In this document: positions 7,674-11,435 of the stretch, in pieces
How positions within the stretch are numbered: the stretch's first letter is position 1
Layout of the letters: every line of letters begins with the position of its first letter
NCBI GenBank assembly: GCA_900769845.1
Contig: CAAGIF010000096.1
Location: 1 to 16,166, forward strand
DNA: 16,166 nt
Direction: 5' to 3'
Origin: an uncultured Oscillospiraceae bacterium
GTDB lineage: Bacteria; Bacillota_A; Clostridia; Oscillospirales; Oscillospiraceae
Position numbers and translations under genes: made by a program
Notes under the pieces: generated by a model
What the model was told of the DNA's origin: nothing
What the model saw: the letters and a program-made list of their open reading frames with translations, nothing else
The model's database searches: none

Positions 7674-7711
7674 CAGTGCAAGGGCTTTCATTCGTCCTTG
7701 CACTGCTTTTT
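7674..7711. terminator. Bidirectional terminator between the PPTase and modC genes
   Basis: A perfect 10-bp stem (7674-7683 with 7696-7705) with a 12-base loop is followed on the plus strand by CTTTTT. On the minus strand it is followed by the T-rich gttttgttattt. It serves both converging operons, and its T tract overlaps the modC stop codon. Confidence 0.88.
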
Positions 7712-8756
7712 ATATATCAAATAGTTCCTTTTCAGTAACACACTCCGTCTTGATGCGGTTTAAAAGATAATCCATAGCATCCATCACATGGGGGCGGATA
7801 TCTCCGCCGATCAGCGCCAGCATCATATCCTCTCCCACCTGTAGAAGTCCCGAATTGATCCACACCCGAACATGCCGGATTCCGGGAAGCTGCTCTGTGG
7901 CCGCCACGATCTCCGCCAGTTTGCCTGCATCGTAGGAAAGCTCCATTCCGGAAACCGGAGGTGTTTGCGCTCCCTGGCGTACCGCCGCTCTGGAGCTCCG
8001 CCGAACCGTACCGCAATGGGTCAGGTACATCCCGGATTCTATTCCTGCCTCACTGGTTTTTGCCTCCCGCAGCCATGTGTCAAGGGAGGGGATTTCCATG
8101 CTGGTTGTTCCGTATTTTTCAATATGGCCCGCTTTCATTCTGACAACGGTGTTCGCCATGCGTGCAGCCTCTCCGCAATCATGGGTGACCAGGATCACCG
8201 TCTTTTCAAATCTGCGGATTACCTGTCTGAGATTATCTTCCATTCTTTCCCGAAGCTGACTGTCCAAAGCGGAAAACGGCTCGTCCAGCAGTAAAATTCC
8301 CGGTTCGGACACAAGCAGTCTTGCCAACGCCAGCCTTTGTTGCTGTCCGCCGGAGAGCTGATCCGGAAACTGCGTTCGAACCTGTTCCAGTTCAAAGTCC
8401 GCCAGGGCGCGCTCTACCATTGTCCGTCGTTTTTTCTTATTGCGCTCCCCTGCCGTACCGGCCTCTATGTTCTGTTCCACCGTCATGTCAGGAAACAGCG
8501 CATAGTTTTGAAACAGCAGACCGGCTTTTCGTTGTTGAGGAGGCAAATTGATATGCTTCTCAGAATCAAACAATGTCACACCGTTACATATAATTCTGCC
8601 TCTGTCCGGTTTTTCAATGCCTGCAATACATTTTAGGGTCAGCGTCTTGCCGCAACCGGAGGGGCCAAGTAAGCCGAGGGTTTCTTCTTCGCCGGAGAAC
8701 GCCACCTTTAGGTGAAAATCCCCCAATTTTTTCTCAATATCCACCAAAATCGACAT
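7710..8756 (-). CDS. modC: ModC-type molybdate/tungstate ABC ATPase with a MoaE-like C-terminal domain
   Basis: ATP-hydrolysing subunit of a molybdate/tungstate importer. Residues 1-225 form the ABC domain: Walker A GPSGCGKT (31-38), signature LSGGQ (134-138), Walker B ILLLDEP (154-160), switch His192. A canonical ModC then carries an oxyanion-binding TOBE/Mop domain, which I do not see. Instead residues about 240-346 resemble MoaE, the large subunit of molybdopterin synthase. They show CGTVR (Arg252), ELSYDAGKLAEI, VWINSGLLQVGED, Arg321, and Lys336 and Lys343 seven residues apart. These match Arg39, Arg104, Lys119 and Lys126 of E. coli MoaE as I recall them. The usual His before the second Arg is Ile. 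The MoaE call rests on by-eye alignment. Start 8756 has AGGAGG about ten bases upstream, inside the end of modB; the genes overlap by 23 bases. Confidence 0.85.
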   Translation of the reverse strand: MSILVDIEKKLGDFHLKVAFSGEEETLGLLGPSGCGKTLTLKCIAGIEKPDRGRIICNGVTLFDSEKHINLPPQQRKAGLLFQNYALFPDMTVEQNIEAGTAGERNKKKRRTMVERALADFELEQVRTQFPDQLSGGQQQRLALARLLVSEPGILLLDEPFSALDSQLRERMEDNLRQVIRRFEKTVILVTHDCGEAARMANTVVRMKAGHIEKYGTTSMEIPSLDTWLREAKTSEAGIESGMYLTHCGTVRRSSRAAVRQGAQTPPVSGMELSYDAGKLAEIVAATEQLPGIRHVRVWINSGLLQVGEDMMLALIGGDIRPHVMDAMDYLLNRIKTECVTEKELFDI

Positions 8757-9432
8757 TCCGATCCCCCCTCCTTTTTTCATTTCTCCGGTTTTGCAGCAGA
8801 TTTAGCGTCAGTAAAACTCCCATGGAAATTATCAGATTCAGCAGCACCCAGCGGAAAGCTGCGCTGTCATCCCCTATCCGCCACAATTGATACACCGTGG
8901 TGGAAATCGTCGCCGTTCTTCCCGGGGTATACCCACAGAGCATACTTGTAGCGCCGTATTCTCCCAATCCGCGGGCAAAGGTCAGCACTACACCGGCCAG
9001 AATACTCTGTCGGCAGTATGGGATTCGAATTTTCCAAAAAATATAGGTATTGCTTCTTCCAAGGCTCTGGGCGCACTGTGCAAGGGTTTCGTCAAAGGAT
9101 TCAAAAGCTCCCCTGGCTGCGCGGTACATCAGGGGAAATGTCACAATGGTCGTAGCGATGATTCCGGACCACCAGGTCATGGTCAGTCGCAAGTCAAATA
9201 CTTGCAGAAAAGCAGCACCGATCAAGCGTCTGGGTCCCAGCAGTCGCAGAAGTAAATACCCCACCACCGTGGGCGGCAATACCAAGGGCAGGGTTAAGAC
9301 AACATCCAAAATGCCCTTCACCATGCCGGGAGCTTTTGACAGGTAGTATGCCGCAAAAATCCCCAAAAAGAATACGATCACAGTGCTGATCCCCGAAATC
9401 CGCAGGGAATTTAGCAGAGGAAACCAATCCAT
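8734..9432 (-). CDS. modB: ModB-type molybdate/tungstate ABC permease
   Basis: Membrane channel subunit of the molybdate/tungstate importer. The 232-residue protein has about five hydrophobic segments and the ModB pattern LPLVLPPTVVGYLLL (48-62). The cytoplasmic EAA loop (about 105-138: AARGAFESFDETLAQCAQSLG) docks on the ATPase. LTFARGLGEYGATSML (150-165) is highly typical of ModB and CysT-type permeases. The start lies 18 bases after the modA stop, with only a weak ribosome binding site, so coupling to modA translation is likely. The last eight codons overlap the modC start. Together with ModA and ModC this makes a complete importer. Molybdate versus tungstate cannot be told apart by eye. 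Confidence 0.92.
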   Translation of the reverse strand: MDWFPLLNSLRISGISTVIVFFLGIFAAYYLSKAPGMVKGILDVVLTLPLVLPPTVVGYLLLRLLGPRRLIGAAFLQVFDLRLTMTWWSGIIATTIVTFPLMYRAARGAFESFDETLAQCAQSLGRSNTYIFWKIRIPYCRQSILAGVVLTFARGLGEYGATSMLCGYTPGRTATISTTVYQLWRIGDDSAAFRWVLLNLIISMGVLLTLNLLQNRRNEKRRGDRNVDFGGY

Positions 9433-9450: not shown

Positions 9451-10269
9451 TCATTCTCCGATGGGAGTAAACCCAACCTCCCGGAAGACGGCATCTGCCG
9501 TATTCGTTGTCAGATACGCGAGGAAGCATACTGCCGCCTCCCGCTCTGGGGAGGTCTTCAGCACCGCCGCAGGATAAATCACCTGCCCGCACATCTCCGG
9601 TGTTGCCGTATCCACCACCACAAGTCCGGCAGAGTAAGCATCTGTTTTATAAACAATGCCGCAATCCACCATTGCCTCTTGCACCTGGACTGTAACCTCT
9701 TTGACATTGGCGCTGTAGGTGATTACGCCGCCGGCAGCAAGTTCCGACTCTGCAAGGCCGTAATAAGCCAAGATCTTTGACCCATACTGACCGGCCGGGA
9801 CATCGGCATTCCCCATTGCGAGGATCCCTTCGCCGTTGCCCATCCGGACTGCCAGTTCCTCAAAAGATCGCACCCGTCCCGGATTCCCCTCCGGCACAAC
9901 AAGTACAATTTGATTCTCCAGAAGGTTGATTCGGGTTCCCGGCAGGAGAAAGTCCAACCCCTGCGTATTTAATTCAGGATCTGCTGTAATATCCAGTTGA
10001 TCCATTTGTTTCTGTCCGGCAGATAGAAAGATGTCACAATGGGCTCCCTCCTGGATTTGCGTCTTAAGCGTTCCGGAAGAGTCAAAGTTCAGAGTGATCC
10101 GAATATCCTTGTGGTCTGCCATATACTGCTCCGCCAGTTCTGTCAGCGTTTCCTGAAGAGACGCTGCAGCGAAGACGGTTATTTCTGTTTTCTTCTGCGC
10201 CGGGCCGCATCCGGCTATCAACACCGTGACCCATACGCTGACCAGCCACAATACAAATACTTTTCGCAT
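9451..10269 (-). CDS. modA: ModA-type molybdate/tungstate-binding lipoprotein
   Basis: Extracellular binding protein that captures molybdate or tungstate and delivers it to ModB. The 272-residue precursor has a lipoprotein signal (residues 1-20) with lipobox IAGC, so Cys21 would be lipidated. The mature part begins with ITVFAAASLQETLTEL, the ModA hallmark that includes oxyanion-contacting serine, then FDSSGTLKTQIQEGAHCDIFLSA. Near residue 160 it has DVPAGQYGSKILAYYGL, also a family signature. Ribosome binding site GGGAGGG lies six bases before the ATG. It is first in modABC and divergent from a Crp/Fnr-type regulator, with an inverted repeat in the shared upstream region. No Moco riboswitch-like structure was recognised in its short leader. 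Confidence 0.93.
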   Translation of the reverse strand: MRKVFVLWLVSVWVTVLIAGCGPAQKKTEITVFAAASLQETLTELAEQYMADHKDIRITLNFDSSGTLKTQIQEGAHCDIFLSAGQKQMDQLDITADPELNTQGLDFLLPGTRINLLENQIVLVVPEGNPGRVRSFEELAVRMGNGEGILAMGNADVPAGQYGSKILAYYGLAESELAAGGVITYSANVKEVTVQVQEAMVDCGIVYKTDAYSAGLVVVDTATPEMCGQVIYPAAVLKTSPEREAAVCFLAYLTTNTADAVFREVGFTPIGE

Positions 10270-10339: not shown

Positions 10340-10357
10340 ATGTTGTCTCAACAACAT
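10340..10357. promoter_or_regulatory. Perfect inverted repeat, candidate operator of the Crp/Fnr-family regulator
   Basis: ATGTTGT-CTCA-ACAACAT is a perfect 7-bp inverted repeat with a four-base centre, the spacing used by FNR-type sites. It lies in the 133-base divergent region between modA and the regulator. Relative to the modA -10 it is centred near -42, the class II activator position. For the regulator it overlaps a possible -35 (TTGTCT 10343-10348, 17 bases from TATATT 10366-10371), which would permit autorepression. The binding protein is inferred from position. Confidence 0.6.
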
Positions 10358-10402
10358 TTATATGATATATTTAAATCACCGTTACCGAAAGGAAAACTCA
10401 CT

Positions 10403-11077
10403 ATGGACTCCTGGATCCACGCATTGAAACAAACCGTCATTTTCTCCGGCTTTCCCGAAGAAGTGCTTCGTACGCAAGTATTGCCCTCAGGGCGAATACA
10501 ATCTTTTCAAAAGGACCAGTTTCTGATTCAGCCCAGGCAGAAGGTGGATCAGTTTGGAATCCTCCTATCCGGCAGGGTGCATATTATGCACATTTCCCCT
10601 CAAGGAAATTACAGTCTGACCTGCGTTTTGTTGCCTGGGGAGGTTTTGGGCGCTGATCTCATTTGTACCCGCAATCAGATCGCCCCCTTCCATGCCATCG
10701 CCGCCGCTGCGACCCAGGTCATGTATCTTCCGGCATCCATACTCACCGCTCCGGGACAACTCCCGGAGGATTGCCGCCTGGATGGCATCCGACAGCTTCT
10801 GACATTGATCTCTCAGGAAAACATGAAGAAAGAATACCGCATCGCCATTCTCTCCCAAAAGGGTCTTCGGGAGCGGATCCTTACCTATCTGATGATGCAG
10901 TCGAACCGGCGGCAAGCCAACGAATTTACCATTCCCTTCTCCCGGGAAGAGCTTGCCAGCTTTCTGTGCGTCAACCGCAGCGCCCTTTCCCACGAACTGA
11001 GTCTGATGCAGCACGAAGGGATCCTTTCTTTTCGCAAAAATCATTTTTGCATTCACATCCCACCTTCCGGGCTTTGA
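10403..11077 (+). CDS. Crp/Fnr-family transcriptional regulator, probable regulator of modABC
   Basis: DNA-binding regulator of 224 residues with an N-terminal cyclic-nucleotide-binding-like beta barrel (about 15-120: LLSGRVHIMHISPQG, LPGEVLGAD), a dimer helix, and a C-terminal winged helix (about 150-220; helix-turn-helix PFSREELASFLCVNRSALSHEL). The RS(A/T) residues that bind cAMP in CRP are absent, and the cysteines are not clustered as in the Fe-S form of FNR, so the signal is unknown. In the recognition helix, Glu and the second Arg of CRP correspond to Ser193 and His197, so its site should differ from CRP and FNR boxes. Start 10403 has AAAGGA about nine bases upstream; an in-frame ATG at 10340 lies inside the inverted repeat and has no ribosome binding site. 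It is divergent from modABC. Confidence 0.88.
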   Translation: MDSWIHALKQTVIFSGFPEEVLRTQVLPSGRIQSFQKDQFLIQPRQKVDQFGILLSGRVHIMHISPQGNYSLTCVLLPGEVLGADLICTRNQIAPFHAIAAAATQVMYLPASILTAPGQLPEDCRLDGIRQLLTLISQENMKKEYRIAILSQKGLRERILTYLMMQSNRRQANEFTIPFSREELASFLCVNRSALSHELSLMQHEGILSFRKNHFCIHIPPSGL

Positions 11078-11240: not shown

Positions 11241-11435
11241 ATGAAGAACAATAACCAGATCAATATCCCCCAGGCTCGCGAAGCTATGGACCGTTTCAAG
11301 ATGCAGGCCGCTTCCGAAGTCGGCGTGAATCTGACCAACGGCTACAACGGTCATCTGACCTCCCGTGAGGCCGGCTCCGTCGGCGGCCAGATGGTCAAGA
11401 AGATGATTGAGGCTTACGAGCAGGGCATGCAGTAA
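11241..11435 (+). CDS. Alpha/beta-type small acid-soluble spore protein (SASP)
   Basis: DNA-coating protein of dormant spores that protects DNA and is degraded at germination. The 64-residue protein has both family signatures. One is the germination-protease site region AASEVGVNL (expected cleavage after Glu26). The other is the DNA-binding stretch EAGSVGGQMVKKMIEAYEQ near the C terminus. Length is typical (about 60-75 residues). Ribosome binding site AAAGGAGAG precedes the ATG by about seven bases. It stands alone, with its own leader and a strong terminator 10 bases after the stop, as expected for a gene switched on only in the forespore. It is the best evidence that the organism forms spores. 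Confidence 0.95.
   Translation: MKNNNQINIPQAREAMDRFKMQAASEVGVNLTNGYNGHLTSREAGSVGGQMVKKMIEAYEQGMQ

Follow-up and report, generated by a model that had tools for sequence, protein, structure and literature searches.

We analysed a 16,166-nucleotide stretch of DNA (the window), in which a molybdate transport operon ordered modA-modB-modC ends in a gene whose product joins a ModC-type ATPase to a MoaE-like domain. The features of the locus are as follows.

7674..7705, no strand assigned: terminator-like hairpin of 12 pairs (consensus match only)
7710..8756, minus strand: modC-moaE fusion gene, 348 aa plus stop (open frame; Pfam ABC_tran and MoaE)
7713..8090, minus strand: clostridial-type MoaE-like domain, residues 223-348, with Arg252, Arg321, Lys336 and Cys339 (Pfam PF02391, AlphaFold2, PDB fold matches, conservation)
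8106..8756, minus strand: ABC ATPase domain, residues 1-217 (Pfam ABC_tran; NCBIfam modC_ABC, 188.3 bits, below the cut-off of 285.05)
8734..9432, minus strand: modB, molybdate ABC permease (NCBIfam TIGR02141, 198.9 bits, cut-off 182.6)
9451..10269, minus strand: modA, molybdate-binding protein (NCBIfam TIGR01256, 108.8 bits, cut-off 62.5)
10340..11077, plus strand: Crp/Fnr-type regulator, divergent, beside modA (Pfam cNMP_binding and HTH_Crp_2)

The fusion gene, third and final in the operon, is read from 8756 to 7710 and encodes 348 residues. It overlaps modB by 23 nt, and a Shine-Dalgarno-like AAGGAGG at 8767-8773 stands 10 nt ahead of its ATG at 8756; an alternative start at 8780 would yield a 356-aa version. 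The hairpin separates it from a convergent phosphopantetheinyl transferase gene, and the region holds 6 terminator-like sites against 3.2 expected from shuffling. Comparison of the window with Rfam gave no match. The window also contains, at 11241-11435, a gene for an alpha/beta small acid-soluble spore protein, from which the source organism is probably a spore former.

The ModC-MoaE domain fusion in the window is real. The cluster of its product, P0001, is based on five member sequences and one contig, which might point to an assembly or gene-calling artefact uniting two genes. We regard this as highly improbable, as the reading frame is single and uninterrupted, with GC contents of 0.50 and 0.55 in its two halves, and 10 other ABC-MoaE fusion clusters exist besides that of the window.

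In the ATPase half, the ABC motifs are complete (Walker A at residues 31-38, LSGGQ signature at 134-138, Walker B at 154-159, D-loop at 162-165 and the switch histidine His192), and both these motifs and a modAB operon, on which membership of ModC was judged, are present. The score of 188.3 bits against TIGR02142, the whole-protein modC equivalog, lies under the cut-off, but the unfused ModCs P0314 and P0312 likewise stay below it, at 213.6 and 216.0 bits, so that the low score reflects the clade too and not only the absence of the tail. Pfam TOBE matched neither the fusion at E<=0.001 nor the identical P0001 at E<=1, which removes a TOBE/Mop identity for residues 240-346.

The initial annotation had read residues of about 240-346 as MoaE-like in place of a TOBE/Mop domain, and the profile and structure comparisons agreed with it. 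PF02391 (MoaE) scored the tail at 38.0 bits (cut-off 23.4); in a scan of 8 other fusions, P0249 came just under that cut-off at 22.6 bits. The AlphaFold2 model of the domain had a pLDDT of 93.6, and a PDB fold search with it returned 33 matches at E<=0.001, to molybdopterin (MPT)-synthase large subunits; on this modelling, the tail is predicted to carry the MoaE fold. For the full-length fusion, the model (pLDDT 78.4, pTM 0.51) is too uncertain to place the domains relative to each other. A family profile (A2) run against PDB sequences gave no match at E<=0.1.

Conservation was assessed on 389 sequences, made up of the best 80 of 525 loci and 309 listed proteins, with entries P0310-P0331 (22) left out. 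His247, Arg252, Trp299, Asp319, Arg321 and Pro322 are invariant in 389/389, Lys336 is kept in 388 and Cys339 in 387. Arg252, Arg321 and Lys336 align with Arg39, Arg104 and Lys119 of Escherichia coli MoaE; the first of the two catalytic lysines proposed for the tail is thus kept across the family, and the Lys-x-x-Cys motif formed by Lys336 and Cys339 is retained in all 11 ABC fusions. The second proposed lysine, Lys343, has the correct spacing in the window, yet MAFFT places a gap opposite K126, and position 343 is variable across the 389 sequences (T in 162, E in 63, K in 60, Q in 42, then others). We therefore discarded Lys343 as a family-wide mark of catalysis; a lysine at the K126-type position does occur in 9 of the 11 ABC fusions (60/389 overall), ten of which are close relatives of one another. 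At this position the window has K, and P0121, the standalone relative closest to it, has R. The initial annotation was also right that the histidine of the MoaE His-Arg pair is replaced, the window having Ile320-Arg321, but this is no local loss, as Ile stands there in 383/389. Since the His103-Arg104 pair is absent, we did not class the tail with the canonical MPT synthase subunits. According to the available portion of PMC4443979, Haloferax MoaE depends crucially on its K119 equivalent and can dispense with its K126 equivalent, and a K126A variant of a bacterial MoaE is nearly 60 times slower. Taken over the alignment, the conserved active-site residues favour a function of the MoaE-like domain.

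We searched for further fusions with residues 120-356 as the query; 7998 candidates were scored and the best 120 of 7004 listed. At the top of the listed matches stood 11 ABC-MoaE proteins (P0001 of the window, P0023 and P0241-P0249), so the ABC_tran plus MoaE architecture put forward in the initial annotation recurs in at least 11 protein clusters. The unfused ModCs among the listed matches end in another domain, starting near LTGC[KE]N. Those of the P0310 and P0314 clusters and the one in locus L125 share with the fusion the ABC motifs and the modA-modB-modC order, and the fusion differs from them in that the MoaE-like domain stands in for the C-terminal residues, about 120 in number. The other domain is missing from 11/11 fusions, with P0247 and P0248 retaining boundary traces (LLTGCKK and ILTAGKK) ahead of the MoaE-like part. 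In the available part of a survey of gut TOBE proteins, the sole major architecture linked to transport is ModC/TupC carrying TOBE at the C-terminus (PMC11980592). In the unfused P0310, P0312 and P0314, Pfam TOBE gave no match at E<=0.1, and we dropped the TOBE label for the replaced part, which is described here only as a different C-terminal domain; one NCBIfam ATPase profile aligns to residues 19-339 of P0312, nearly its full length. No ModC-MoaE fusion appeared in 397 genomes from the family to which G010 belongs when P0245 was the query and 5 candidates were scored per genome: five ModCs matched at E<=1e-90, with 65-74% identity to P0245, and all had the other C-terminal domain. An ABC fusion was likewise absent from 80 loci of the MoaE-like family.

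Two trees bear on the origin of the fusions. That of the MoaE-like domain held 72 domains over 127 columns (the 11 fusions, 7 chosen domains and 55 others drawn at random, minus one row), and its bootstrap had not settled. It pairs the window domain (100/100) with P0121, a standalone protein of 143 aa that comes from a 1012-base contig and is 89% identical to it, and starred branches force the two changes that the fusion label needs. The tree of ABC domains held 35 sequences, namely the 11 fusions, 20 of the 22 listed unfused ModCs and 4 of the 5 P0245-related ModCs. The window's ABC domain and unfused ModCs share one 100/100 group, the other ten fusions and the four unfused P0245-related ModCs form a separate 100/100 group, and of the four label changes needed, two are forced. 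The simplest reading of these trees is that the fusion arose independently at least twice, two origins giving the best fit; a single gain followed by losses would be a less simple alternative.

Domain searches at E<=0.001 returned 534 proteins in one case and 292 in the other. Among the best 120 listed of each, the domain occurs as a standalone protein of about 130 aa, behind a MogA-type domain in proteins of about 298 aa, behind MobB, and in the ABC fusions. Like MoaE (PF02391; E. coli 1fm0, human 4ap8, Staphylococcus aureus 2qie), the family has the MoaE fold with equivalents of Arg39, Arg104 and Lys119, and at part of its loci it keeps company with moaA, moaC, mogA and moeA genes. It differs in the Ile in place of His103, the unconserved K126 position, the conserved Cys three residues past the lysine, a low identity to E. 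coli MoaE (22-31% for ten members, 15-25% in structure alignments), genomes that have no ThiS/MoaD match (7/28, see below) and, here, the fusion to ModC.

Gene neighbourhoods were surveyed by tblastn with one query per gene in the sequence flanking 80 family loci, which contig ends often shorten. Matches were found to ModC-related ABC ATPases at 42 loci (the query also matches Tup-type ATPases), MogA at 38, MoaC at 37, MoaA at 32, TupB at 21, TupA at 20, MoeA at 16, ModA at 12, ModB at 11, formate-dehydrogenase-like proteins at 12, FdhD at 11, AFOR at 10, FmdE at 8 and MobB at 7. Six loci (L005, L026, L030, L057, L067 and L076) show a near-complete cofactor operon in one direction, comprising modABC, moeA, moaA, mobB, moaC and a mogA-moaE-like gene. 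The family gene spans at least 296 aa at 16/80 loci and includes there an in-frame match to MogA, the enzyme that acts next. A ModC-like ABC match within 400 nt of the family gene was found at 0/80 loci. At eight loci (L016, L019, L025, L032, L034, L062, L064 and L075) an FmdE-type match begins 22-26 nt past the MoaE-like match. The family also occurs in Acetobacterium dehalogenans (L077), which we take to be an acetogen; acetogens are reported to be without MoaE in the available part of PMC5039349.

A scan of small open frames for Gly-Gly ends gave 82 in 46/80 loci, mostly unrelated or pieces of MoaA. Among them was one family, about 80-90 aa long, with its stop codon 13-42 nt ahead of the MoaE-like match; three examples directly upstream of the MoaE-like gene are as follows.

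L019, 9734-9982: small Gly-Gly protein
L059, 488-736: small Gly-Gly protein
L075, 9731-9982: small Gly-Gly protein

A profile search that did not require the Gly-Gly end found the family at 13/80 loci, several near-identical, and the end was present in 13/13; the same profile search found no member in the window. DUF1952 matched 4/11 members weakly (best E 0.0003), and the sole PDB match at E<=10 was the C-terminal part of 1v8c, a 'MoaD related protein' (E 0.013). Models of ribosomal L37ae gave weak matches to two members as well, the best with an E of 0.00084 and 19.3 bits where the cut-off is 87. At the genome level, clear matches occurred in 4/28 carriers of the MoaE-like family and in 0/52 MoaE-less genomes. 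A weak match in the MoaE-less G314 (L134; E 0.014), with FLSAGG at its end, resembles a distant member, another in G006 (E 0.048) contains stops, and in G003 the small protein and the family gene lie on different contigs. A general or exclusive partnership is unsupported by these counts, given the distant member in G314; in a minority of carriers the small protein is a possible candidate for a sulfur carrier or MoaE partner.

In the 17 genomes reached from family loci, PF02391 matched once each, always at the family locus; MoaC was found in 17/17 and a ThiS/MoaD-family match in 10/17. We also sampled 391 genomes of the class of G014, presumably Clostridia; 85 had a MoaC match, and 80 of these were surveyed. 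PF02391 matched in 11/80, with 12 matches of 30.1-37.8 bits that all coincide with family-profile matches of 198-225 bits. The other 69/80 MoaC-positive genomes had no MoaE match, with genome completeness unstated and single absences weak. No other kind of MoaE was seen in the 28 family-carrying genomes (0/28) and no canonical MoaE across the 97 genomes (17 plus 80); the same search matched 11/14 control genomes, including E. coli and Bacillus subtilis. An order-wide sample gave PF02391 matches in 4/147 genomes (27.7-37.1 bits), G001 of the 17 being one. ThiS-family matches occurred in 68/80 MoaC-positive genomes, in five solely in frames of 640-735 aa (G395, G421, G430, G478 and G495). With ThiS and MoaD not told apart, 21/28 carriers had a match and 7/28 none, against 12/69 MoaE-less genomes with none (Fisher p 0.41, some counted matches being weak), and the idea that the family compensates for a missing MoaD was rejected. 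Molybdenum-hydroxylase domains (PF02738, E<=1e-10) were present in 23/28 carriers and 34/52 MoaE-less genomes.

Some other route to molybdopterin must serve those of the 69 MoaE-less genomes that make it, and the family does not have to be the synthase. MOSC proteins are a candidate for the alternative step there. With one MOSC query they were found at 0/80 family loci and at 14/20 moaC loci of MoaE-less genomes, the latter being centred on moaC, which only 37 of the 80 family loci show; at the genome level they were found in 16/28 carriers and 47/52 MoaE-less genomes (Fisher p 0.0011, ignoring kinship). A MoaC-MOSC fusion was seen at L122 (9366-10265) and a MOSC-MogA fusion at L129 (163-1092). 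MOSC proteins were proposed as a stand-in for MPT synthase in a Dehalobacter genome paper, which, in its available part, reports MoaD and MoaE as lacking (PMC4751268). Two Geobacter species have one or the other MPT synthase subunit only, as stated in part of PMC2700814; the accessible text of a paper on selenium-dependent hydroxylases has no mention of MoaD, MoaE or MOSC (PMC2276186).

MoaE is a homodimer. ModC also acts as a dimer, in ModB2C2 (PMC11980592, available part), so two tails could pair under the transporter. We give even chances to the tail being an active, diverged MoaE, the MPT synthase large subunit or an enzyme of the same step, tethered to the importer. Sulfur would be transferred onto cyclic pyranopterin phosphate at Lys336, and the ModC dimer would let two MoaE-like tails pair beneath the transporter and form the metal-binding dithiolene at the point of molybdate entry, tying synthesis to import through co-localisation and fixed stoichiometry. 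In its favour are the fold, the retention of Arg252, Arg321 and Lys336 (389, 389 and 388 of 389) and of Lys-x-x-Cys in all fusions, the absence of any other MoaE from 28/28 carriers, the MogA, MoaC and MoaA neighbours, the MogA fusion at 16/80 loci, at least two label changes forced in both trees, and the Haloferax enzyme, which needs the K119 equivalent and not the K126 equivalent (PMC4443979, in part). Against it stand the seven carriers that have no ThiS/MoaD match, the Ile in place of the HR histidine and the unconserved K126 position, alongside the slow bacterial K126A variant. Catalysis by the family is, on sequence evidence, plausible, and no firmer because 69/80 MoaC-positive relatives have no MoaE match. 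A more specific version, in which the family would be an unrecognised MPT synthase with a non-classical sulfur source (the upstream DUF1952-like Gly-Gly protein or its own conserved Cys), built into the importer in the ModC fusions and so coupling metal entry to dithiolene synthesis, we consider quite doubtful.

Two other explanations give the tail a lesser part. It may act as a sensor without catalysis, in which the binding of molybdopterin, a pterin precursor or a sulfur carrier would gate the transport of molybdate, as its place at the site of the other C-terminal domain of the unfused ModCs seen, the HR histidine and second lysine not kept family-wide, and the 69 genomes that manage without any MoaE match would suggest. 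This is unlikely, as most of the listed members stand alone or are joined to MogA or MobB and share the conserved residues, yet lack a transporter on which to act, and the fusions all retain Lys336 and Cys339. The fusion may instead only have joined neighbouring modC and moaE-like genes for joint expression, with the halves acting independently. Family genes share loci with Mo/W transporter genes (the ModC-related, Tup, ModA and ModB counts above), the family fuses to several cofactor proteins, and P0121, the nearest relative, is a separate protein; yet the old C-terminal domain is gone in every fusion, across two separate ABC lineages, and 0/80 loci have a ModC-like ABC match within 400 nt of the family gene, which makes this rather unlikely. 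By its fusion to ModC, the domain may in addition connect metal import physically with cofactor synthesis. The family itself is a concrete, testable candidate for the missing MPT synthase in a subset of Clostridia, and the 69 MoaE-less genomes sharpen the question of molybdopterin synthesis and do not close it.

In titles and abstracts found for open-licence PMC papers, no ModC-MoaE fusion was described, and the available text of a comparative-genomics paper on molybdenum use has no discussion of one (PMC6147048). Other fusions of MoaE-fold domains are known. Mycobacterial MoaX (9jbd) differs in that its partner is MoaD, and its cleavage is reported to be necessary for its activity (PMC4326299). 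In Haloferax volcanii, MoaE is likewise fused to another molybdenum-cofactor protein, MobB, but the partner is the ubiquitin-like SAMP1 and no transporter is involved, as given in part of PMC4443979; P0043 and P0085 of the present family are similar. MobB (Pfam PF03205) and the MoaE-like domain are joined in one protein in P0043, P0085, P0250 and P0260.
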